Origin: an uncultured Clostridia bacterium
GTDB lineage: Bacteria; Bacillota; Clostridia; TANB77; CAG-508
Direction: 5' to 3'
Length of the DNA stretch: 40,986 bases
Assembly: GCA_947589065.1 (NCBI GenBank)
Contig: CANPZM010000011.1
Coordinates: 1-40,986 of the forward strand
Shown here: positions 1-26,135 of the stretch, piece by piece
Layout of the letters: every line of letters starts with the position of its first letter
Position numbering within the stretch: position 1 is the stretch's first letter
Translations under genes and position numbers: made by a program
Notes under the pieces: generated by a model
Seen by the model: the letters and a program-made list of their open reading frames with translations, nothing else
What the model was told of the DNA's origin: nothing
The model's database searches: none

Positions 1-191
1 TTTGTTCCTTATTAATAATACTGTAATTTCAAAATATAGATATTAATTTTTGCTCCTTGCGGGGCATTGTCTCCATCAAATATTAGATGGGAGGACAATG
101 CCAATCGCATTACGTTCAAAAATCAGTGATTTTTTCACTCCATTTGGTCGCTACGCGTCGCATCAAATTAATATCTATATTTTGAAATTAC
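1..191. repeat. Structured intergenic repeat, copy 1 (type 1), with end of a preceding unit
   Basis: A 27-bp perfect terminal inverted repeat lies at 23-49 and 165-191. Inside are a hairpin with arms GGCATTGTC / GACAATGCC and a short hairpin AAAAATC / GATTTTT with a 3-nt loop. The first 22 bases match the spacer that precedes the other copies, so the array probably continues left of the window. The same element recurs at 285-452, 19101-19269 and 19361-19529. It looks like a small non-coding repeat (MITE-like or a structured RNA). No transposase is visible. Confidence 0.8.
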
Positions 192-707: not shown

Positions 708-812
708 ATGTTATCAAAACTAAAGGAAAAAATTAAAGAGAAAAAAATGAAAAAGTGCGAAAATCATTGCAAGAGTACACACACACACACACACACACGG
801 GTATCTAATTAA
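708..812 (+). CDS. Out-of-frame 5' end of giant gene A (OFF-phase leader, 34 codons)
   Basis: ATG at 708 follows a good Shine-Dalgarno site (AAGGAGAG, 693-700). It encodes a lysine-rich N-region, then Thr-His codons from the AC tract, then Arg-Val-Ser-Asn and a TAA stop at 810-812. It ends before any membrane segment. The giant ORF downstream is in another frame, has no ATG, GTG or TTG before 856, and has no Shine-Dalgarno site at 856. Adding 2 nt (12 AC units) or removing 4 (9 units) joins the two frames. The N-region then runs straight into a hydrophobic stretch (codons 811-885) typical of a signal or anchor segment. I read this ORF as the true start of gene A, interrupted by a slippage frameshift. 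It is not an independent small gene. Confidence 0.8.
   Translation: MLSKLKEKIKEKKMKKCENHCKSTHTHTHTRVSN
777..798 (+). repeat. (AC)11 simple sequence repeat inside the gene A coding region
   Basis: Eleven perfect AC units lie between the start codon (708) and the signal/membrane segment of gene A. A tract of C-containing dinucleotides stands out in DNA this rich in A and T. The present count puts the start codon out of frame. Counts of 9, 12 or 15 would be in frame. Counts of 10 and 13 use the third frame and hit TAA at 806-808. Confidence 0.95.
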
Positions 813-855
813 ACGAAATATAATAATTGGAATTATAGTAATTGCTATATTTACA

Positions 856-3800
856 ATGGCATTAATAAGTTCAATATTATTTTTCGGACAAAGAGAGAAT
901 GTAAATAAAAATAATAAAATATATGATCCTGCATTGGCAAGAGCAATGGAATATAAGAGGGTTGGAGAAAATGATAAAGATACTGCGAGTGAATACGTTA
1001 AATTTGATGCATTTTTCTTAGCAGATTTAGATGGAGACCCAACTAATGAAGCAGATGCAGTTCGTGGAACATGTAATGAAATAGGGAAGGAAGATACACT
1101 TTACATGGAATTAAATGTACTAACGAATGGAAGATTAGTTGATGGTAAAATAGAAATCCAAAGTGATAACTTTTACTTACAAACAGCAATTCCAAAAGAT
1201 GGAGAAGTAAGTGAAAATGCAGTAGGAAATAATACGAAACAAATATTATTAAAAGATATAGAAACTGGAACACAAAAGACATTAACAGGAATAGTAAGAA
1301 GTGGAGATTATTCATATGAAAGTAAAAAAACAGCAGCAATAGGAAATGATACAACTAAATATAGTAAAGAAAACAAAATAATATTAACAGGAACACATAT
1401 AGCAGAAGATGGAAGCAGAACCCAAATAAATAAAGAAGTAAAATTTGAAGTAGATTGGTATGGAACAGTAGGAGCTCAATTTCAATATATAAACCAGACA
1501 AAAGATATAAGTAAAATAGTAGATGAAGAGAAACAAGAAGTAAATTTAGAATTTGATATAGAAGTAAGAGAACCACGAAATCAATTAAATATATCAAAAT
1601 CAGTATTAGAAGGAACAGTACCAGAATTAGGTGGACAAAAAGCAACTAGATTAGAAGTAACAGGAACAAATGTAACTTTTGATTGGATACAAGGAACAGG
1701 AAAATTTACAGCACAAAGAGAAGCTCAAAAAGATGAAAAAGGAATAATAACAACATCAGGATATAGTTCAGATTATTCATCATATAAAGTAAATACATAT
1801 AAGTTAAAAGTAACATATCCGTTAGAAGCATATCAGGCAATAGGAGAAAATACAATTGAATATAAAATACCAGTAATTGCACATTATGAAGGATATAATA
1901 ATACACATAAAGAAGCTGGATTTCAAAATCCATATGTATCAAACACAGTTAAAGATACAATAACAATAAATTTTAGAAAACCAGAAGGAAATGTAGCAAT
2001 ATTTGATATAACAGTAGGAAGGTATGTATATTCACCAACAGCAAGATATGTTATTTCAAAGAAAAAACCATTAAATATATACAATGAAATTTCAGAGACA
2101 GAAAAAGATGATGTATATACAGTAAGATGGGATGGATATACAGGTACTTATGGAAAATCAACAGTAATGATAATGAAAGAAACAGAAGGCGACAGTGAGA
2201 CAAAAGTAGCAGATCAGTTTGAAAAAAGTGATGGAAAATATGACAGTATGGAAAAAGTTACAACAAACGTAGGAATATATTTTTCAAACCCTGTAAACTT
2301 ATTAGGAGAAAATGGAGAAATAAAAGTATATGATGATGTAACAGGAGAATTATTAGAAACTTTCAATAAAAGTAATTGGAATAAATATACAAGTACAAAT
2401 CCATATAAATATAAATATCCAGTAAAACACATAAGAGTAGAAACAAGTGCGACAAATGAAAATGCAAGCATATCAGTATACAACATAAAAGAATTAGATG
2501 ATGAATATATAACAACAAATTATAATAGAACAGCATTTGATGAATTACAATACATAAAATCAACATTAACAGGATACTTAGATGAAAGAAAAATAAATAC
2601 AGATACGCATGAAGCACTTTATGAAGCACCAATGTCAGTAGTAGAATTAACAATAGATCCATCAATAATGTCAACACAAGAAACGGAAAAACATGCAATA
2701 ATAACAATAAAACCAGAAGTAAATGAAAATTATAATGAAGAAAAATGGTCAAATGGGTCATTTTTATTAAAGATACCAGAGGAAATATTAGATATAGAAT
2801 TAAATGAAGTAGAAACGACAAATGAAAGTGTGACAGTTATAGGTTCAGAAATAATAGAGAAAGAAAAAAATAAATATATAAAAATATTAACATCAAATGA
2901 AGAGCCAGCCTCATTTGAAATAAAAATTGATTGTAATATAACACCAGATCCAAGAACAGTTACACAAACATCACAGATTGATTTATATGCAATAAATGAA
3001 AACTGCCAAAATTATTATAAACCAGTACAAGATGAACACGATTTGAATGGAAATGAAAACAAAACAGAAATGATAGGACATGCAACAACAAGTGTAAGTC
3101 TAATCTCACCAAATTCATTATTAACAAATGAATATGCAACAGATTATGATGAGAAAGAAAGTGAAGCAGTAGCACCACAAGTAGCAAGAGTAAGTAAAGA
3201 GCAAGAAAGTGCAAAAGTAAATATAGAAATAAAAAATAATTATACAAGCACAATAAGTGATATAAAAATATTAGGAAGAATACCATTTGCAGACAATAAA
3301 TATGTAATAAATGGAGAAGAATTAGGTTCAAATTTTACAACTGAAATAAAAGAAAAAATCAAACTTCCAGCAGATTTAGCCGATGTAGCAACAGTATATT
3401 ATTCAACAAATGGAGAAGCAACAGAAGAAATAAATGGAGAAGGAAACAATTGGGAAGAAGAGCCAGAAAGCTTTGATAATATCAAGAGTTATTTGATAGA
3501 TTTAGGAGACTATCAATTACAAAAACAAGAAAAATATGTAATATCATATGCTATAAGTATACCATCAGGATTAAATTATAATGATGTATCATATAGCCAT
3601 CATGCAGTATATTTTAGTTTAGATACAAAAGAAGGAAAATATAAAACACACACAGAACCAAATAAACTAGGATTTATGATAGCAAAACAATATGATTTAG
3701 AACTAGTGAAATATCAAACGGGGAAAGATAGAATTGTACCAGGGGCAACATATTATATTTGTGAAGAAGGAGCAAAAGAAGGAAAAACGAGAGTAACAGA

Positions 3801-6800
3801 TGCACAAGGAAAATTAACAATACCAGGTTTATATGCAGAGAGAACATATATTATAAGAGAAATAAAAAGTCCAACAGAATATGAATTAAATGCAGGAGAG
3901 ATAAAATTCAAGACAAAAGAAGAAAATGGAAAACTAATATTAGAAGACATAACAGGAACAAGAAAAGAAATAGAAATAATAAACTCAGATGGAGAAAATG
4001 ATTATACGGTACATGTAGAAGTAGAAGATGAGGCAAAAGCAAAATTAAAAATAATAAAAACAGATAAAGAAAGTGAATTAAAACTTTCAAAAGTAAGGTA
4101 TAAAATAACAGGAGATGGATTACTAAAAAATGGAAAAATATTAAGAACAAATCAAAATGGAGAAGTAACACTAGATGGATTAAAAATAGGAACAGAATAT
4201 ACCCTAGAAGAAATAAAAGCAGATGGGTATTATTTAGCAGACCCAATAACTTTTACAATAAATAATGTTGAAGGAGAATACATTGTAACAATAACTGACG
4301 GAATAGATAATAGCATACAAGAAACAGAAGATATTCCAACATTAACATTAAATATAAAAGATGACAAGATTCCAACATATAATTTAGAAATATTAAAAAT
4401 AGAAAAACAAACAGTATTAGATACAGAAGAAGGACAAGCACAACCAGAAAGAAAACTATTAGCCGGAGCAAAATTTAAATTATATAAAGATGATAAGGAA
4501 ATAGGAGAATATACAACAAATAACGCAGGAAAAATAACAATAGAAAATTTATATCAATATGAAGAAGATAGAAAGATAGACCAAACGTATACTTTAAAAG
4601 AAGTATTATCACCAACGGGATATGCAAAAGTAAAAGACATAACCTTTAAAGTACAAAAATCAGCAGATGGAAATACATTAGAATTTGTAGAAGAATTACA
4701 AGAAGGACAAACAGCAAAAAAATATAAAGTAGAAGGAAATAAAGTAGAAGTAACAATAGAAGATAACCCGTCATTCAAATTAATAAAAAAAGACGAAAAT
4801 GGAGAAGAATTAAAAGGAGTAAAATTTGCAATATATAATGTAGATGATGGAGAAACACCAGCTAAAAATAGTAAAGGAGAAATACTGGGAAATAAAGAAA
4901 ATATAAATGGAAGAGATTATTATGTATTAGAAACAAATGAACAAGGATACCTAACAGCAGATTTACCTGAAGGATTATATAAGGCAGTAGAAGTAGAAGC
5001 TCCAGATAAGTATGATATAAAAGATAATATATATTATTTTGGAATAGGAGCATCAAGAGAAGGAAAAACAATTCCAATAACTGAATGGGGAATAGGAATA
5101 GGAGGAACAGGTGATGACAGAATAGTGTCAATCATTGCAACACAAGACGGTGGGTATATTGTAGGTGGAAATTTTTCTGATATGATTCAGATAGATAGAA
5201 ATAATACCTTAATAAGTAATGGGTCTGATGATGGAATATTAATAAAGTATAATGTTAATAATGAAGTTGAATGGAGTAAAATAATAGGAGGAGATGATGA
5301 AGATCAAATAAAAGCAGTGATAAACACAAGTGATGGAGGATACTTAGTAGGAGGATATTTTAAAAGCAATACCATTGACCTAAAAAACGACAAAACATTA
5401 ATCAATATAGATAATGAAGATGGAATGGTAATCAAGTATAGTAAAATGGGAGAAGTTGAATGGAATAAAGCAATAGGAGGAACAGGTTCTGATGTTATAA
5501 CAACAGTAGGAGAAACGATAGATGGGAATTATTTAGTAGGAGGATATTTTAGTGAAACTATAAATTTAGAAAATAATAAAACATTAAAAAGTAATGGGTC
5601 TTATGATGGAATGCTAATCAAGTATAGTATAGAAGGAGAAGCAAAATGGAGTGAAAAAATTGGAGGAACTAGTACTGATGAAATAACAACAGTAAAAGAA
5701 ACGTCAGATGGAGGCTACCTAGTAGGAGGATATTTTAGAAGTAAAGAGATAGAATTAGGAAATGAAAAAATATTAACAAATAATACTTATTATGACGATG
5801 GAATGCTAATAAAGTATAATTCTTATAATGAAGTAGAATGGTGTAAAGTAATAGAAGGAGATTATACTGATGAAATAACAACAGTAATAGAAACATCAGA
5901 TGGAGGATATCTAGTAGGAGGAATTTTTTCAAGCTATTATATAAGCCTAGAAAGCGGTAAATTATTAGGAAATCATAATTATGATAGACATTCTGATGAT
6001 GGAATGTTAATCAAGTATAGTGAAGATGGAATAGTAGAATGGTGTAAAGCAATAGGGGGAAAGGATGATGATAAAATAAATAAAGTAATAGAAACGAAAG
6101 ATGGAGGCTATTTAGCATGTGGATATTTTTGCAACAGTGATATAGGCTTAGGAAATGGAAATAAATTAACAAATCATAGTAGTTATGATGATGGAATGCT
6201 AATCAAGTATAATAAAGATGGAGATGTAGAATGGAGTAAAGCAATAGGAGGAGATTATAATGATGAAATAACAACAGTAATAGAAACAAAAGATGGGAGA
6301 TACTTAGTAGGAGGATATTTTAGTAGTACAGTAAATTTAGAAAATAATAAAACATTAAAAAGTAATGGGTCTCATGATGGAATGTTAATCAAAGTACAAC
6401 TTGAAGATGTACCAGAAGCAACAATAAAACAAGTAAAAATAATAGAAGGAGATAGTTCTGACTGTGTGAGAACAGTAATAGAAACGACAGATGGAGGTTA
6501 TCTAGTAGGAGGAGATTTTAAAAGTAGTACAATAAACTTAGGAGATGGAAACACACTAACAAATCATAGTCGTTATTATTCTGATGGAATGATAATAAAG
6601 TATAATTCTGATAATGAAGTAGAATGGTGTAAGGCAATAGGAGGAGATGGTTCTGACTATGTGAGAATAGTAATAGAAATGACAGATGGAGGATATCTAG
6701 TAGGAGGAAACTTTAGTAGTTCTAAAATAAATTTAGGAGCTGGTAGTTATACATTAACAAGTCATGGCAGTGGTGATGGAATGTTAATAAAGTATAGAGA

Positions 6801-9800
6801 AAATGGAGAAATAGAATGGTGTAAAGAAATAGGGGGAAATTACGATGATGAAATAACAACAGTAATAGAAACGTCAGATGGAGGATATCTAGTAGGAGGA
6901 AAATTTAGTAGTTCTAAAATAAATTTAGGAGCTGGTAGTTATCCATTAACAAGTCATGGCAGTGGTGATGGAATGTTAATCAAGTATAATGCTAATAATG
7001 AAGTGGAATGGAGTAAAGTAATAGGAGGAAACAGTATTGATGAAATAACAACCGTAAAAGAAATGTCAGATGGAGGTTATCTAGTAGGAGGATATTTTAG
7101 TAGTACAGTAAATTTAGAAAATAATAAAACATTAAAAAGTAATGGGTCTCATGATGGAATGCTAATCAAGTATAGTATAGAAGGAAAAATAGAATGGGGC
7201 AAAGAAATAGGAGGAACAAGTGGCGATAGTATAGAAACAATAATAGAAATGTCAGATGGAGGGTATTTAATAGGAGGATATTTTGATAGTAGAGAGATAG
7301 AATTAGAAAATGAAAAAAAATTAATAAATCAAGATTATAGAGATGGAATGCTAATAAAGTATAACTCTAATAATGAAGTCAATTGGTGTAAAGAAATAGG
7401 AGGAAATTACAATGATGAAATAACAACAGTAACAGAAACGTCAGATGGAGGTTGTCTAGTAGGAGGAAACTTTAATAGTTCTACAATAAATTTAGGAGCT
7501 GGAAGTAATACATTGAGTGGTAGTAAAAAATATGATACAGGAATGTTAATTAAGTTTAGTAATGGAGGAGAAGTAGAATGGAGTAAATCAATTGGCGATG
7601 AAATAACAACAGTAATAAAAATATCGAGTGGGAATTATTTAGTAGGAGGATATTTTAGTAGATATATAAATACAGGAGTTGGTAATGAGTCTGCAAGTGG
7701 TGGTTCTGATGGAATGATATTAAAAGTAGTAGAAGAAATGGGAGCATTGGAAGTAGAGAAACTAGAAGTACAAAATAAAGTAAAGCAATTTAAGATAACA
7801 ACTGATGTACAAGAAATAAATGGAATGAGAGGAGGAGATATTGACGGAGAGGATAAAAAGCCATATGAAACAGTAGAATATGATGGAACAAGCAAAAAAA
7901 CAATAAAAATGACACCAGAATCAGAATATGAAATAATATCAGTAACAGTAAACGGAAAAGAATGGAAATTTGATAAACAAGATGACGAAACATACACAAT
8001 GCCACCATTTGAACATATGAAAGAAGATAAACATGTAGTGGTAACATATAGTAAAAAATCAAATAAAATGGTAATAAAAAAGGTAGATAGTAAAACACAA
8101 AAAGGAATACCAGGAGTAAAATTCCAATTAGATCAAATAGAGGAAAGACAAAATCCACAATTGCCATATACATTAACAGATAATGGACAAGAATATGTAG
8201 AAGCAGATATGGCAAATCTAATAGAAGATGAAGGAGTAATAGGAGAATTAGAGCATTTAGGAACATCAGAATATTATTTTGTAGAAGATGAAGAAGGAAA
8301 CTATGTACCAACAAATAGTAAATCTTACAGTGAAAATAATGGAACAGGAAAACATAATAAAACAGCAAATTCATATATACAAATAGACCTATCACAGTTA
8401 AGTTCAGAAGAAAAATATGTAGTAGTTGTAAATGCAAAAGTGTCAAGTCAAAGTTATGATTATGGGTATGCAACAATAACAAATGATAATACAAAAGCAC
8501 CATCATACAATTCAACAACAGGAAGATTTATATATAAATCAGGGAATACAGATATTGAAGCACATGATTATACATCACAAGCGTTACAAGGAGGACAAAT
8601 ATATTATTTACATTTAGGATATTACAAAAATGGAAGTACAGATACAGGAGAAGACCAAATAGTATTTAATAGTGTAAAAGTATATAAAGCTAAAACAGTG
8701 ACATATAATTTTACAGAATCAGAGAGTGGAACATATGAATCAACAAATCAAGGAAAAGATAATACAGAATGCAATTCGTATATAGAAATAGATTTACAAA
8801 CATATACAGGAAAATATAATTTAACAGTAAATGCAGAAATATCAACAGAAAATGGAGATTATGGATATGCGACAATAACACAAAATGATACAAGACCATC
8901 ATATAGTAGTAGTACAGGACAATTTATCTATATAACAACAAAACAAGATAAAAAAGATTATACAACTGTATTAGATGGAGGATTTAAATATTACTTACAT
9001 CTAGGATATTATAAAAATGGAACAACAAATAAAACAGGAAATACAGAAGATAAATTTAAGGTAAATAGTATAGATTTAACTCCAAATGATTCTGAACTAT
9101 ACCATATAGAAGTAGAAACAAATAGTGAAGGAAAAGCAATAACAGAATTGCCATTTGGAAAATATCAAATAACAGAAATAAAAGTACCAGATGGATATTT
9201 ACCAATAGAAGATGATATAATTATAAACTTTAAGGAAAATCAAAAAGATGTAGAACAACCAGTAGACAGTGAAAAGGTGAAAGTAAATGAAATAGATGGT
9301 GAGTATGAATATGAAATAGCAAATAAAAAGAAAGCAAAAGTAACAGTACATCATTTAGCTAGAGAAAATGAGCAACCAGTGGCACCAGATGAACATCAAG
9401 AAGGAAAAGTAGGAGAACCATATAAAACACAACCACATTTAGATTTAGAGAAATATGAATTAGAAAAAGATGAACAAGGAAATCAAAAAATACCTGAAGA
9501 TGCAAATGGAGAGTTTGGAGAAACAGACAAAGAAATAACATATTGGTATATAAAAAAGAAAATTCCATTAACAGTACATCATTACATAGAAGGCACAAAT
9601 ACACCAGTACCATTAAAAGATGGAAATACAGCAGAAGATGTAACAAGTAAAGGAGAAGAAGGAGAATCATATACAACACAAGAAATATCAGATGACGAAT
9701 TATCAGAAGAATATGAATTATCAGAAGTACCATTAAACGCAGAAGGACAATATGAGGGAGACGAAGTAATAGTAACATATAAGTATAAAAAAGTAGCAAG

Positions 9801-12800
9801 AAAAGTAACAATAGTAAAAGTAGAAGAAGATGAAGAAACACCAATACAAGGAGCTAAATTCACAATAAAGAATAAAACAGTAGAAGAAGAGGAAGAACCA
9901 GAAGAATATGAAACAGATAAAAAAGGAAAATTAAATGTTACACTAGAAGCGGGAGAATATGAAATAACAGAAACAAAACCAGCAGAAGGATATCAATTAC
10001 CAGAAGATCCAACAACAGAGGTAACAATAACCAAAGAATCATCAGATCAAGAGATACAAATAGTAAATGAAAAATTAAAAGGAAGAGTAATAGTACATCA
10101 CTATGTATATAGAACAAATAATAGTGTGCCATCAAAAGTAGAGGGAGAAACAGTAGCAGATGAAGTAAAGATAGGAAATATAGGAGCAATATTTGCAACA
10201 CAACAATCAAAAGATGTAAGTCCAAAATATGAATTTGTAGAAGCAGATAAAGAAACAAGTGGAGAATATAAAAAAGAAGAACAAGTAATAACATACTATT
10301 ATAGAACAGATCAGCCAGAGATAGATTCTCAGATAACCAAAGAAGGAACAAAGAGAATAACAAAGAAAGATGCAGAAGTATCATATACAGTACATTACAC
10401 AGCAACAATAGAAGATTACATAGGTTATGCAACGATAACAATAGTAGACAAGTTACCATATCACATAGATGAAGGAGCATCAGATAAACAAGATGGAGTA
10501 TATGATGAAGATGCGAAAACATTAACATGGACAGAAGAAAGAAAAAATATTAACTCATATAATGATGATGGAAGTAACAAAATAGAAATTTACAAAAACT
10601 TAAGATTAGTATTTACAGACATAGATGTAAAAGCAGAAAATATGACGAATGAAGTAACAGGAACATTGAAATTACAGACACCAGAAAAGACAGATGAAAA
10701 GAAAGCAACAGAAGAAACAGAAACAGACTTTAAGATAGATATACCAGTAGAAAAGATATGGGTAGACAAGAGCGATAGAGATAAACAAAGACCAGAAGAA
10801 CTAGAGTTAGTATTAAAGAAAGATGGAATAGAAGAAAAGACAGTAACGATAAGCAGTAAAAAGAATCAAGACGAAGAAGATAGTAACAAATGGACATATA
10901 CTTTTAAAGATTTACCAAAATATGATGAAAATAAAGAAGAAATAATCTATACAGTAGAAGAAAGAGCGAAGGAAAAAGACGATTTGAAATATTACAATCC
11001 ACAGATAGATGGAGAAAATGTGGAAGAAGGAGTAAAAATAACAAATACAATAGATTATGGAAAAGTAACAGTACATCATTATATATTTGGAACAGACGAA
11101 AAAGTACCATCAAAAAATGGAAAAGTAGTAGAGGATGAGCTAATAGAAGGAAATGTAGGAGAAGAATATCATACAAAGCAATCAGACCAAGTAAGTCCAA
11201 ATTACGAATATGTAATAACAGAAGGAAATGAAGATGGAGAAATCCAAGAAGACCCAACAGAAGTAACATACTACTATAGACTAAAAGAACCAAAAGTAAC
11301 AGAGACAGATGTAATAAAAGAAGCACCAAGTATTGTAACACGCAAGAATGAAAAAGTACCATATACAATTAAATATGTAGCAGTAGTGGACGAATATATA
11401 GGAGATGCAACAGTAATAATAGTAGATAAACTACCATATCACATAGATGAAAAAGCATCAGACTTAGCAAATGGTAAATATAATGCAGAAAATAGAACAA
11501 TAACATGGGTAGAAAATATTAGTGGAATAGATACCTATGAAAGTCAAAAGAATGTAATTAAAGTAATAAAAGAAATAGAACTAGTATATACAGATATAGA
11601 TATAACAAAAGATAATATGACAAATAGTGTAACAGGAAGTTTAGATTTATTAATAACTAAAACACATTATGATGATGAAGATGAGGCAGAGACAAAAGTA
11701 GAAATACCAGGAGAAGTAATAGTAAAATATAAAGACAAAAATACAGATGAAGAAATAGAAGAGCCAGTAAGAAAAGAAGACAAAGTAGGAAATAAATTTG
11801 ATGTAGAAGAAGACAAGAAAGAGATTCCAGGATATACATTAGTAGAAGAACCAGAAGAAAAAACAGGAACGTATGGAAACGAAACACAAGAGAAGACATA
11901 TTACTATGCAAAGAATACAACAGTACATGTAACATATGTGGACAAGTTAACAAAAGAAGAGATAGCAAAAGATGAGTTAATAGAAGGATACGAAGGAAAA
12001 GAGTACACAACAGAGCAAAAAGAGATAGAAAATTACAAATTTGTAGAGAGTACAGATAATACAGAAGGAAAGATGACAATAGAACGAATAGAAGTAATAT
12101 ACTATTATGTAAGACCAGCAAAAGTAGTAGTAAGACATGTAGAGAAAGAAACAGAAAAGGACTTAATAGAACCAGAGGAAATTCCTGGATATCAAGATGA
12201 TGAATATACAACAGAAGAAAAACATTTGAAATTCTATAACTTAATAGAGAAACCAGAGAATGCAGAAGGAAATATGACTGTAACGGTAGAGAGGGATAAA
12301 GATGGAAAGATAACGATAAATGATGTAACATATGTAATTTACTACTATGAGAAGAAACCGTTTAACTTAAAACTAGAAAAGAAAATGGATAGCATAATAT
12401 TAAATGGAAAGACAATAAAGGTTAATGGAGATTTAGGAAAGGCAGAGGTATACAGAAAGGCTGTAAATACAAGTAAGATAGAGGTAGTGTATACGCTAAA
12501 GGTAACGAATACAGGAGAGTTAGCAGGAAAGGGAACAATAAGAGAGAGTATACCAAGTGGAATGACAATGGAAAAGGCAAAGAATACTGGCTGGAGGATA
12601 AATGATAGTAAGGCAATGCTAGAGACAGAAAATATTAATCCAGGAGAAACAAAAGAGTACAAAGTAAGGCTAACATGGAAGTCAAATGCAACGAATCTAG
12701 GACAAAAGACGAATATAGCAGAGATAATATCAACAGAGAATGAGGCAGGATTTGAGGAGACAATAAAGGTTGATAATGTTGATACGGCTGATTTGATAAT

Positions 12801-12915
12801 TGCAGTAGGAACTGGTAATGAGATAATCAATGAAATTATGATAAGCACAGGAATAATAGCAATAATGTTAATTGGATTAATAAGTTTAGCAAAGTGGACA
12901 AGAAGAAGGAAATGA
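856..12915 (+). CDS. Giant surface adhesin A: SpaA domains, two predicted 7-bladed beta-propellers, MucBP/Cna-B stalk, C-terminal anchor
   Basis: The open frame runs for 4019 codons from an internal ATG at 856 that has no ribosome site. The real start is probably 708, via the (AC)n tract, giving about 4069 residues. Layout, numbered from 856: a novel N-terminal region (1-780); a DUF11-like region (about 780-940); four SpaA-type domains (about 947-1400); fourteen ~62-residue blades (1411-2295) with recurring DGGYLVGG, DGMLIKY and W-x-K-x-IGG; a small beta domain (about 2310-2400); a SpaA domain split by two similar beta-sandwich modules (2405-2800, insert 2491-2745); MucBP, Cna-B and VDKLPYHID modules (about 2828-3830); and a DUF11-like C-terminal domain. 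It ends in AVGTG (3983-3987), a hydrophobic helix and TRRRK. The last ~940 residues are paralogous to protein B. The likely role is a long stalked adhesin or ligand-binding protein. Domain names rest on motif recognition; the function is inferred. Confidence 0.88.
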   Translation: MALISSILFFGQRENVNKNNKIYDPALARAMEYKRVGENDKDTASEYVKFDAFFLADLDGDPTNEADAVRGTCNEIGKEDTLYMELNVLTNGRLVDGKIEIQSDNFYLQTAIPKDGEVSENAVGNNTKQILLKDIETGTQKTLTGIVRSGDYSYESKKTAAIGNDTTKYSKENKIILTGTHIAEDGSRTQINKEVKFEVDWYGTVGAQFQYINQTKDISKIVDEEKQEVNLEFDIEVREPRNQLNISKSVLEGTVPELGGQKATRLEVTGTNVTFDWIQGTGKFTAQREAQKDEKGIITTSGYSSDYSSYKVNTYKLKVTYPLEAYQAIGENTIEYKIPVIAHYEGYNNTHKEAGFQNPYVSNTVKDTITINFRKPEGNVAIFDITVGRYVYSPTARYVISKKKPLNIYNEISETEKDDVYTVRWDGYTGTYGKSTVMIMKETEGDSETKVADQFEKSDGKYDSMEKVTTNVGIYFSNPVNLLGENGEIKVYDDVTGELLETFNKSNWNKYTSTNPYKYKYPVKHIRVETSATNENASISVYNIKELDDEYITTNYNRTAFDELQYIKSTLTGYLDERKINTDTHEALYEAPMSVVELTIDPSIMSTQETEKHAIITIKPEVNENYNEEKWSNGSFLLKIPEEILDIELNEVETTNESVTVIGSEIIEKEKNKYIKILTSNEEPASFEIKIDCNITPDPRTVTQTSQIDLYAINENCQNYYKPVQDEHDLNGNENKTEMIGHATTSVSLISPNSLLTNEYATDYDEKESEAVAPQVARVSKEQESAKVNIEIKNNYTSTISDIKILGRIPFADNKYVINGEELGSNFTTEIKEKIKLPADLADVATVYYSTNGEATEEINGEGNNWEEEPESFDNIKSYLIDLGDYQLQKQEKYVISYAISIPSGLNYNDVSYSHHAVYFSLDTKEGKYKTHTEPNKLGFMIAKQYDLELVKYQTGKDRIVPGATYYICEEGAKEGKTRVTDAQGKLTIPGLYAERTYIIREIKSPTEYELNAGEIKFKTKEENGKLILEDITGTRKEIEIINSDGENDYTVHVEVEDEAKAKLKIIKTDKESELKLSKVRYKITGDGLLKNGKILRTNQNGEVTLDGLKIGTEYTLEEIKADGYYLADPITFTINNVEGEYIVTITDGIDNSIQETEDIPTLTLNIKDDKIPTYNLEILKIEKQTVLDTEEGQAQPERKLLAGAKFKLYKDDKEIGEYTTNNAGKITIENLYQYEEDRKIDQTYTLKEVLSPTGYAKVKDITFKVQKSADGNTLEFVEELQEGQTAKKYKVEGNKVEVTIEDNPSFKLIKKDENGEELKGVKFAIYNVDDGETPAKNSKGEILGNKENINGRDYYVLETNEQGYLTADLPEGLYKAVEVEAPDKYDIKDNIYYFGIGASREGKTIPITEWGIGIGGTGDDRIVSIIATQDGGYIVGGNFSDMIQIDRNNTLISNGSDDGILIKYNVNNEVEWSKIIGGDDEDQIKAVINTSDGGYLVGGYFKSNTIDLKNDKTLINIDNEDGMVIKYSKMGEVEWNKAIGGTGSDVITTVGETIDGNYLVGGYFSETINLENNKTLKSNGSYDGMLIKYSIEGEAKWSEKIGGTSTDEITTVKETSDGGYLVGGYFRSKEIELGNEKILTNNTYYDDGMLIKYNSYNEVEWCKVIEGDYTDEITTVIETSDGGYLVGGIFSSYYISLESGKLLGNHNYDRHSDDGMLIKYSEDGIVEWCKAIGGKDDDKINKVIETKDGGYLACGYFCNSDIGLGNGNKLTNHSSYDDGMLIKYNKDGDVEWSKAIGGDYNDEITTVIETKDGRYLVGGYFSSTVNLENNKTLKSNGSHDGMLIKVQLEDVPEATIKQVKIIEGDSSDCVRTVIETTDGGYLVGGDFKSSTINLGDGNTLTNHSRYYSDGMIIKYNSDNEVEWCKAIGGDGSDYVRIVIEMTDGGYLVGGNFSSSKINLGAGSYTLTSHGSGDGMLIKYRENGEIEWCKEIGGNYDDEITTVIETSDGGYLVGGKFSSSKINLGAGSYPLTSHGSGDGMLIKYNANNEVEWSKVIGGNSIDEITTVKEMSDGGYLVGGYFSSTVNLENNKTLKSNGSHDGMLIKYSIEGKIEWGKEIGGTSGDSIETIIEMSDGGYLIGGYFDSREIELENEKKLINQDYRDGMLIKYNSNNEVNWCKEIGGNYNDEITTVTETSDGGCLVGGNFNSSTINLGAGSNTLSGSKKYDTGMLIKFSNGGEVEWSKSIGDEITTVIKISSGNYLVGGYFSRYINTGVGNESASGGSDGMILKVVEEMGALEVEKLEVQNKVKQFKITTDVQEINGMRGGDIDGEDKKPYETVEYDGTSKKTIKMTPESEYEIISVTVNGKEWKFDKQDDETYTMPPFEHMKEDKHVVVTYSKKSNKMVIKKVDSKTQKGIPGVKFQLDQIEERQNPQLPYTLTDNGQEYVEADMANLIEDEGVIGELEHLGTSEYYFVEDEEGNYVPTNSKSYSENNGTGKHNKTANSYIQIDLSQLSSEEKYVVVVNAKVSSQSYDYGYATITNDNTKAPSYNSTTGRFIYKSGNTDIEAHDYTSQALQGGQIYYLHLGYYKNGSTDTGEDQIVFNSVKVYKAKTVTYNFTESESGTYESTNQGKDNTECNSYIEIDLQTYTGKYNLTVNAEISTENGDYGYATITQNDTRPSYSSSTGQFIYITTKQDKKDYTTVLDGGFKYYLHLGYYKNGTTNKTGNTEDKFKVNSIDLTPNDSELYHIEVETNSEGKAITELPFGKYQITEIKVPDGYLPIEDDIIINFKENQKDVEQPVDSEKVKVNEIDGEYEYEIANKKKAKVTVHHLARENEQPVAPDEHQEGKVGEPYKTQPHLDLEKYELEKDEQGNQKIPEDANGEFGETDKEITYWYIKKKIPLTVHHYIEGTNTPVPLKDGNTAEDVTSKGEEGESYTTQEISDDELSEEYELSEVPLNAEGQYEGDEVIVTYKYKKVARKVTIVKVEEDEETPIQGAKFTIKNKTVEEEEEPEEYETDKKGKLNVTLEAGEYEITETKPAEGYQLPEDPTTEVTITKESSDQEIQIVNEKLKGRVIVHHYVYRTNNSVPSKVEGETVADEVKIGNIGAIFATQQSKDVSPKYEFVEADKETSGEYKKEEQVITYYYRTDQPEIDSQITKEGTKRITKKDAEVSYTVHYTATIEDYIGYATITIVDKLPYHIDEGASDKQDGVYDEDAKTLTWTEERKNINSYNDDGSNKIEIYKNLRLVFTDIDVKAENMTNEVTGTLKLQTPEKTDEKKATEETETDFKIDIPVEKIWVDKSDRDKQRPEELELVLKKDGIEEKTVTISSKKNQDEEDSNKWTYTFKDLPKYDENKEEIIYTVEERAKEKDDLKYYNPQIDGENVEEGVKITNTIDYGKVTVHHYIFGTDEKVPSKNGKVVEDELIEGNVGEEYHTKQSDQVSPNYEYVITEGNEDGEIQEDPTEVTYYYRLKEPKVTETDVIKEAPSIVTRKNEKVPYTIKYVAVVDEYIGDATVIIVDKLPYHIDEKASDLANGKYNAENRTITWVENISGIDTYESQKNVIKVIKEIELVYTDIDITKDNMTNSVTGSLDLLITKTHYDDEDEAETKVEIPGEVIVKYKDKNTDEEIEEPVRKEDKVGNKFDVEEDKKEIPGYTLVEEPEEKTGTYGNETQEKTYYYAKNTTVHVTYVDKLTKEEIAKDELIEGYEGKEYTTEQKEIENYKFVESTDNTEGKMTIERIEVIYYYVRPAKVVVRHVEKETEKDLIEPEEIPGYQDDEYTTEEKHLKFYNLIEKPENAEGNMTVTVERDKDGKITINDVTYVIYYYEKKPFNLKLEKKMDSIILNGKTIKVNGDLGKAEVYRKAVNTSKIEVVYTLKVTNTGELAGKGTIRESIPSGMTMEKAKNTGWRINDSKAMLETENINPGETKEYKVRLTWKSNATNLGQKTNIAEIISTENEAGFEETIKVDNVDTADLIIAVGTGNEIINEIMISTGIIAIMLIGLISLAKWTRRRK
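5086..7740 (+). repeat. Fourteen ~62-residue blade repeats within gene A (7+7)
   Basis: Fourteen tandem coding repeats share the pattern W-x-K-x-IGG, an acidic D-E-I-T-T-V segment, DGGYLVGG-x-F, a variable loop, then DGMLIKY. Unit 7 breaks the pattern with KVQLEDVPEATI (about 6391-6429), and unit 14 ends with LKVVEEMG. The array therefore divides into two groups of seven, the usual blade number for a closed propeller. Unit 14 lacks a few residues after its SIG. Some units are almost identical in DNA (9 and 10; 7 and 11), a sign of recent duplication or conversion. Confidence 0.8.
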
Positions 12916-19100: not shown

Positions 19101-19269
19101 GTAATTTCAAGATATAGATATTAATTTTTGCTCCTTGCGGGGCATTGTCTCCATCGAATATTAGACTGGAGGACAATGCCAATCGCATTACGTTCAAAAA
19201 TCAGAGATTTTTTCACTCCATTTGGTCGCTACGCGTCGCATCAAATTAATATCTATATTTTGAAATTAC
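19101..19269. repeat. Structured intergenic repeat, copy 3 (type 1)
   Basis: Terminal inverted repeats lie at 19101-19127 and 19243-19269. One change in the left arm (A to G) leaves the rest of the terminal stem intact. The central GGCATTGTC / GACAATGCC hairpin and the short AAAAATC / GATTTTT hairpin (loop AGA) are conserved. A short open frame beginning with TTG runs through the repeat and is judged spurious. Confidence 0.8.
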
Positions 19270-19360
19270 TTAAAAATAAGTGCTGCGCGTCACAGCAAAA
19301 ATTAATATATGTTTTTTTAACTGTTCAGAGTAAATTTTTTTGTTCCTTATTAATAATATT

Positions 19361-19529
19361 GTAATTTCAAAATATAGATATTAATTTTTGCTCCTTGCGG
19401 GGCATTGTCTCCATCGAATATTAGACTGGAGGACAATGCCAATCGCATTACGTTCAAAAATCTATGATTTTTTCACTGCATTTGGTTGCTACGCGTCGCA
19501 TCAAATTAATATTTATATTTTGAAATTAC
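19361..19529. repeat. Structured intergenic repeat, copy 4 (type 1)
   Basis: This copy starts 260 bp after copy 3. Terminal inverted repeats lie at 19361-19387 and 19503-19529, with one wobble-compatible change in the right arm. The small hairpin has loop TAT, as in copy 2. The flank to 19607 is a decayed version of the inter-copy spacer and holds no gene. Confidence 0.8.
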
Positions 19530-19607
19530 TTAAAAATAAGTTTCGTGCATCACTGCAAAGATTAATATATGAATTTTTTTAACTATTTAGTGAATAATTT
19601 GTGTTTT

Positions 19608-25358: not shown

Positions 25359-26135
25359 ATGAACCAAATTCTTATAACAGAGAAATTGTATATAACTCCA
25401 GAGCTTAAGAGAAAAAAGAAGCTATATAAAATAGACTTTATTATCTCTGTTTTTTTGTTATGCCTTTTATTTTCTTATTACATATATGCTGAATATGATA
25501 AATATGCAGGTGAAAAAAAATCACAGGAAATATTATCTAATATGCAGTTTTCAGGAGAAGCTGAAAATACATATATGTATGATGATACAACAATTAAAAT
25601 TGAGGATAATGAAAGAATTGTAGTAATATTAGCAGATTCTAATTCAGATACTGTAATAGATCCAGAAAATTTAAACAGTAATAATAAAGTTCCTACTAAA
25701 ATAAAACCAAAAGATGTAAGGAAAACAGCTAAAGGTGAAGAATATTATACTATAGCTCAAATATCTATACCAAAAATAGATGTTAATTATCCAATATTAG
25801 ATCATTGGTCAGATGATTTACTAAAAATTTCACCATGTAAATTTCATGGAGCAGATCCAAATGAAATAGGAAATTTTTGTATAGTTGGACATAATTATAG
25901 AAATTCTAAATTCTTCAGTAAAGTTCCTAAATTAACAAAAGGTGATGTAATTAAAATTACAGATACATATAAAAGAACTTTAAATTATATTGTATATGAT
26001 AAACATGTTGTTCCAGATACAGATAATAGAGACACAACTCAAGTAACTCATGGAAAACGTGAAATTACAATTATTACTTGTACAAATGATAGTAAAAATA
26101 GGGTAATTGTTAGAGCTAGAGAAGAAGGCGTATAA
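25359..26135 (+). CDS. Sortase (cysteine transpeptidase), class not assigned
   Basis: This is a 258-residue, N-terminally anchored protein with one transmembrane helix (about 25-43), a spacer of about 80 residues and a C-terminal sortase domain (about 130-255). The catalytic triad is visible: His178 in VGHNYR, Cys241 in ITCTND and Arg248 in KNRVIV (Arg252 is the nearby alternative). Sortases cleave a C-terminal sorting motif and join the protein to the cell wall or to other pilins. It is the only sortase in the window and stands alone between a promoter and a terminator. It lies 360 bp before giant gene C. Likely substrates are A, B and D, which share an A[VI]GTG tail and lack LPXTG. Substrate pairing is inferred; the family call is firm. 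Confidence 0.93.
   Translation: MNQILITEKLYITPELKRKKKLYKIDFIISVFLLCLLFSYYIYAEYDKYAGEKKSQEILSNMQFSGEAENTYMYDDTTIKIEDNERIVVILADSNSDTVIDPENLNSNNKVPTKIKPKDVRKTAKGEEYYTIAQISIPKIDVNYPILDHWSDDLLKISPCKFHGADPNEIGNFCIVGHNYRNSKFFSKVPKLTKGDVIKITDTYKRTLNYIVYDKHVVPDTDNRDTTQVTHGKREITIITCTNDSKNRVIVRAREEGV

Follow-up and report, generated by a model that had tools for sequence, protein, structure and literature searches.

Contingency loci built on simple sequence repeats have been described in Haemophilus influenzae (PMC2651432), Campylobacter (PMC6321876) and Neisseria (PMC5953494). Repeat-driven phase variation is known mainly from culturable, host-adapted pathogens and commensals. At the pil1 locus of Streptococcus gallolyticus, genetic evidence shows that the operon is ON when the leader stop lies within or beside the terminator and stays low when it lies at least 28 nt upstream (PMC3894217). 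In Escherichia coli, the pyrBI leader ORF runs through an attenuator, lets the ribosome prevent termination and responds to UTP. The locus described here lies at the 5' end of a contig of 40,986 nucleotides (the window, which makes up the whole of contig C11), one of 96 contigs of a 1.80-Mb, 98.3% complete genome of an uncultured Clostridia bacterium. It has three marks of a contingency locus: a short tandem repeat, (AC)11, sits 69 nt past the start of ATG 708, three-frame analysis of the window and its paralogues showed that the frame of the full gene is set by the unit count, and the out-of-frame gene body is intact and constrained (below). It lacks the pil1-type order of a separate leader ORF, a terminator and then the gene, as the tract is fused to the gene and no terminator follows it.

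All features of the switch lie on the forward strand. A ribosome-binding site read from the sequence (AAGGAGAG, positions 693–700) serves the switch reading frame, which in the assembled state is a short OFF frame of 34 residues, MLSKLKEKIKEKKMKKCENHCKS(TH)n..., running from ATG 708–710 to TAA 810–812 (708–812). The TTGCAAGAGT box (767–776; consensus TTGNNRSHST), common to paralogues and relatives, abuts the 5' side of the (AC)11 slippage tract (777–798). Its TTG is invariant at 132 loci, but the motif used to select them demanded TTG and the adjacent columns are the informative ones. Directly after the tract, a two-frame stop box (799–812) shuts both wrong frames with TAA 806–808 and TAA 810–812. 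Stops stand at +7 and +11 after the tract in the window and in three paralogues (C25, C49 and C23), and most often at +3 and +11 in the leader-type relatives described below. The ON frame of the giant surface protein A (body at 796–12915) has no internal stop and encodes a membrane segment, six SpaA domains, Cna_B and six MucBP domains. This 12-kb frame is open from 751 to 12915, and its sole ATG, GTG or TTG up to 856 is ATG 856–858, a first possible start that has no ribosome site and would cut the hydrophobic segment. The giant gene is in frame with ATG 708 whenever the unit count is divisible by three, which 11 is not; with 12 units, protein A would by arithmetic have 4069 residues. A sortase gene is also present in the window (25359–26135). 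These results bear out a sequence-only reading of the site, which had placed AAGGAGAG, ATG 708, (AC)11, the stop at 810–812 and a 12-kb frame without a start before 856 exactly where we find them. It had also stated that 12 or 9 units would join the frames, as multiples of three do, and that ATG 856 lacks a ribosome site and would halve the hydrophobic segment. Its interpretation as a phase-variable ON/OFF switch is supported in kind; slippage and switching themselves remain inferred.

Upstream of the switch, a candidate promoter (TTGTTA-16-TAAAAT, 644–671) is kept in seven family copies, and by itself the consensus match is no better than chance (3 found against 3.7 expected). A hairpin with a T run lies about 100 nt 5' of the start codon (557–612) and is kept in all seven aligned family copies. 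Its role is inferred: it is probably a terminator duplicated along with the promoter and the N-region, and it may alternatively be a further regulatory element. Overall, the 200 nt 5' of the ATG, including this hairpin and the candidate promoter, are kept in all family copies, and a purine-rich site is equivalently placed in the other copies, being weakest in C23. Separately, a repeat of about 170 bp with 27-nt inverted repeats at its ends occurs as tandem pairs in the window (23–191 with 285–452, and 19101–19276 with 19361–19536). About 14 copies are present in the genome, several of them just 5' of giant surface-protein genes (C25, C28, C49 and C65); it could be a MITE-like or a recombination element.

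The genome contains seven AC tracts of at least seven units, all in 5' cassettes at gene 5' ends, against 0.012 (AC)7 tracts expected per whole genome under a first-order Markov model of the window. AG tracts of like length are absent from the genome, AT tracts of like length occur at two sites, and a reversed-pattern control gave no match. Four of the seven AC tracts belong to the giant surface-protein family, of which six members could be read. The window copy and C25 carry 11 units and are OFF, while C49 (12 units), C23 (15 units), C40 (3 units) and C28, in which the tract is absent (0 units), are ON. The sequence-only reading had proposed looking for in-frame homologues with a Thr-His N-region, and C49, C23 and C40 are such homologues within the same genome. 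The bodies of the family align across thousands of residues at about 40–61% identity. Those of the OFF copies are free of stops over 4038 codons (C11) and at least 3611 codons (C25), and dN/dS is 0.47 for the OFF–OFF pair compared with 0.44–0.61 for pairs that include an ON copy. The OFF bodies are intact and as constrained as the ON copies, which is not what long-dead genes would be expected to show.

The cassette has the layout ATG, about 30 nt, TTGNNRSHST, (AC)n and stops that close both wrong frames. Of 94 relatives, 40 have AC tracts of at least eight units, and in the fetched loci an ATG with a ribosome site usually lies 23–50 nt 5' of the tract. When the class was sampled evenly, the cassette was present in 9 of the 18 genomes of the window's order and absent from all 373 genomes of other orders; the reversed-pattern control did not occur in the same sample. 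In a partial survey of 84,980 species genomes for the box plus tract, all hits obtained were metagenome-assembled genomes labelled Clostridia, Clostridium or Eubacteriales; many bore animal-gut sample names, and one was named Candidatus Merdicola. We take the cassette-bearing order to be, probably, GTDB TANB77, which is inferred. All these counts come from related sequences rather than independent events, and start codons were picked automatically. Going beyond the sequence-only reading, the switch is no isolated oddity: genomes across the order carry up to dozens of such switches. No prior account of an AC cassette in Clostridia was found in the open-licence literature searched. A conserved peptide is doubtful as the cassette's reason, since the frame in which the DNA box is translated differs in relatives whose tract starts with AACAC. 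Inspection by eye, the only check made for a conserved hairpin in the TTG box, revealed no consistent pairing.

In relatives, genes fused to the cassette encode three HsdS type I specificity subunits, two acyltransferases, a GtrII glucosyltransferase, a GT87 protein and a hexapeptide transferase. HsdS, acyltransferase and GtrII-type genes are classic targets of phase variation, and the presence of such contingency genes among the fused targets provides independent support for the switch interpretation. The three type I restriction specificity subunits (L207, L122 and L193) carry the AC cassette fused in their N-terminus. These might be phasevarions in uncultured Clostridia; their frame state is uncertain because the start codons are unsettled.

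Among loci with enough downstream sequence, 35 were fused to a long frame and 114 were not. A terminator-like hairpin lies within 220 nt downstream in 87 of the 114 unfused loci, compared with 64 of 600 stretches taken at random and 2 of 114 after shuffling. In 80 of these 87, the hairpin is reached by one and only one of the three frames (mean 33 and maximum 50 in 1000 spacer shuffles), and the stop of the right frame falls inside the hairpin in 72 of 87 (shuffles: mean 25, maximum 41). For the longest frame, the stop falls at a median of 0.51 of the hairpin; for the other stops, the median position is 43 nt upstream. The pattern held when terminators were defined more strictly (63 of 65). 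Genes 3' of these leader cassettes have a hydrophobic segment at their start in 73 of 93 cases and a prepilin-like motif in 47 of 93, and surface domains such as BspA-type leucine-rich repeats turn up repeatedly among them. ON states were read in 16 of 85 leader loci, which is rarer than one third; this counts against the switch interpretation, although the figure depends on the automatic choice of start codon. The leader-type relatives, C19 and C29 from the window's own genome among them, show the pil1-type arrangement in which one leader frame ends inside the terminator and the others end well upstream. By analogy, and inferred from geometry alone, the leader-type cassettes are likely repeat-driven attenuators like pil1, the translation-dependent read-through being itself an inference. 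Many cassette copies would then act through transcription attenuation and not through direct frame control, a likely extension of what had been claimed for the window.

Both arrangements occur within one genome. In C19, what comes after the shared N-region and (AC)11 is a short frame with a terminator hairpin rather than a long gene; one frame stops at +141, inside the hairpin (+123 to +166), and the other frames stop before it. In C29 (L037), two adjacent paralogous membrane-protein genes without a Pfam match are each preceded by the cassette: the first is fused to a tract of 11 units and is in frame, and the second lies behind a 10-unit leader whose present frame stops within the terminator. 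The same kind of gene is therefore found under both control types. None of the cassettes compared with Rfam matched a known RNA family. Elsewhere on C19 (4912–5057 in genome G000; L035:2513–2658), Rfam matched an RT-14 RNA (RF02921, 118.7 bits), which, going by its name, we take to be a reverse-transcriptase-associated RNA.

Natural variation in tract length was assessed in pairs of records whose flanks align over 250 bases or more with an identity of at least 85%. The AC count differs in 36 of 47 such pairs and the phase in 27 of 47. Three pairs have completely identical flanks (385–810 nt) and carry 17 and 16, 15 and 13, and 14 and 11 units; two further pairs at 99.7–99.8% flank identity also differ. 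These five near-identical pairs are viral contigs and not the window's gene, so that the mixed AC counts which the sequence-only reading had sought as support are seen among viral records of the cassette and not at the window's own tract. AC counts differ among the six host paralogues as well. In the relative G075, exactly 11 units were present at all eight loci read, with diverged flanks (including L041, L241, L243–L246 and L248).

The cassette was found on 23 viral contigs. Viral loci preceding small phage genes are L258, L268, L271, L273, L274, L255, L275, L266, L269, L270 and L272. On the two viral contigs inspected closely, the genes after the cassette are small and lie, by our own reading, among tail-like and lysis-like genes. 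For one post-cassette gene, on another viral contig, Pfam/PHROGs gave matches to tail proteins and to a Gp10 C-terminal domain; most genes after viral cassettes have no Pfam or PHROGs match. In several viral cassettes the right frame ends at a TAATG that overlaps the next start codon; this raises the possibility, inferred from sequence, of translational coupling as a third output. A relative of one viral post-cassette gene, at 97% identity, is present in a genome of the order, and the cassette phages likely infect hosts of the order, a conclusion that rests on this one case. The viral contigs contained no relatives of the N-terminal part of protein A and no exact family flank.

We consider it very likely that the window site is a phase-variable contingency switch. 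Intact and constrained bodies, in-frame sister genes and the distribution of the cassette make this by far the best explanation. The anatomy, frames, constrained bodies, in-frame paralogues, cassette conservation, leader–terminator geometry and identical-flank length differences are shown by sequence; slippage, reversibility, rate, expression and benefit are inferred. In the proposed mechanism, slipped-strand mispairing would alter the length of the AC tract. When the tract holds a multiple of three units, translation from ATG 708 would pass through the Thr-His stretch into the membrane segment and on to the giant Cna-B/SpaA/MucBP protein (ON). At all other counts, the ribosome would reach a stop within 14 nt and produce only a short peptide (OFF, the assembled state). 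At unfused cassettes, the leader frame would decide whether the intrinsic terminator forms before the downstream gene. The benefit may be surface diversity against phage, immunity or competitors. Against active switching, the constancy of G075 at 11 units indicates that variation is absent in some lineages. A missing MutS was considered and rejected, as MutS is present in 90 of 94 genomes including the window's; with MutS present, dinucleotide slippage should be partly repaired. No variation was observed at the window's own tract, a statement with neither reads nor a second strain behind it.

Of the rival explanations, a consensus or assembly error survives best: the true count would be in frame and the gene ON. 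The assembly is in 96 contigs, counts were not checked against reads, and one paralogue has 12 units. This is nevertheless unlikely, since a 22-nt tract fits well inside ordinary reads, two paralogues stand independently at 11 and others at 12 and 15, and related records with identical flanks differ. Even if an error had occurred, the tract and its switching potential would remain.

It is very unlikely that an 11-unit allele yields the full protein through programmed frameshifting, through slippage of transcription on the AC run or from a start at 856. A two-base shift on an AC run would, by inference, preserve codon identity. However, both wrong frames stop at once, the tract varies in length among homologues, unlike known frameshift sites, and ATG 856 has no ribosome site. 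We give equally little weight to the view that N-region duplication has merely spread the AC tracts as neutral low-complexity sequence that plays no part in switching. The family N-region and the 200 nt upstream have clearly been duplicated, but the cassette is common to unrelated genes across the order and on viral contigs, and both wrong frames are closed directly after it. Nor can duplication of one gene family alone account for the single frame that enters the terminator (80 of 87). Finally, a decaying pseudogene, in which the frameshift is a permanent loss, has in its favor only that the gene is out of frame as assembled, and is all but excluded by 4038 codons without a stop, constraint equal to that of in-frame copies, and a sole lesion that lies within a repeat type also present in in-frame family members.

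The contingency switch resembles the simple-sequence-repeat loci of Haemophilus, Campylobacter and Neisseria in having a repeat near the coding 5' end whose count sets the frame, and in its targets, namely surface proteins, HsdS and acyl- and glycosyltransferases. It differs in that an AC dinucleotide is held in a conserved cassette (TTGNNRSHST on the 5' side, a two-frame stop on the 3' side) reused at many unrelated genes, in its host, an uncultured gut Clostridia, and in target genes of 12 kb. The novelty lies in how widespread the device is and how it is built: a single conserved AC cassette that has two and perhaps three outputs and is used order-wide and apparently in phages too. In an order of uncultured gut Clostridia, it appears to govern genes for the surface, for restriction and for envelope modification, always in the same recognisable form. 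Because its sequence is searchable and ON or OFF is predicted for each unit count, the population state of a locus can be read directly from metagenomes. A bolder reading, towards which the balance tips slightly, is that of a portable, hypermutable cassette serving the whole order as a general random switch, with frame control, attenuation and translational coupling as outputs, and used by bacterial surface genes and phage tail-region genes alike; if so, bacteria and phages would each be tossing coins with one shared device in their arms race. The leader-type relatives share with pil1 and pil3 of S. gallolyticus a repeat within the leader ORF and a matching geometry of stop and terminator, whereas those systems use a GCAGA pentamer at two pilus operons and the AC cassettes occupy up to dozens of loci per genome. 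They share with pyrBI a leader ORF running through an attenuator, although pyrBI senses UTP and not a mutable repeat. This comparison suggests that the S. gallolyticus pilus attenuator exemplifies a solution of wider use, and that the device may also serve phages for their tail-region proteins.
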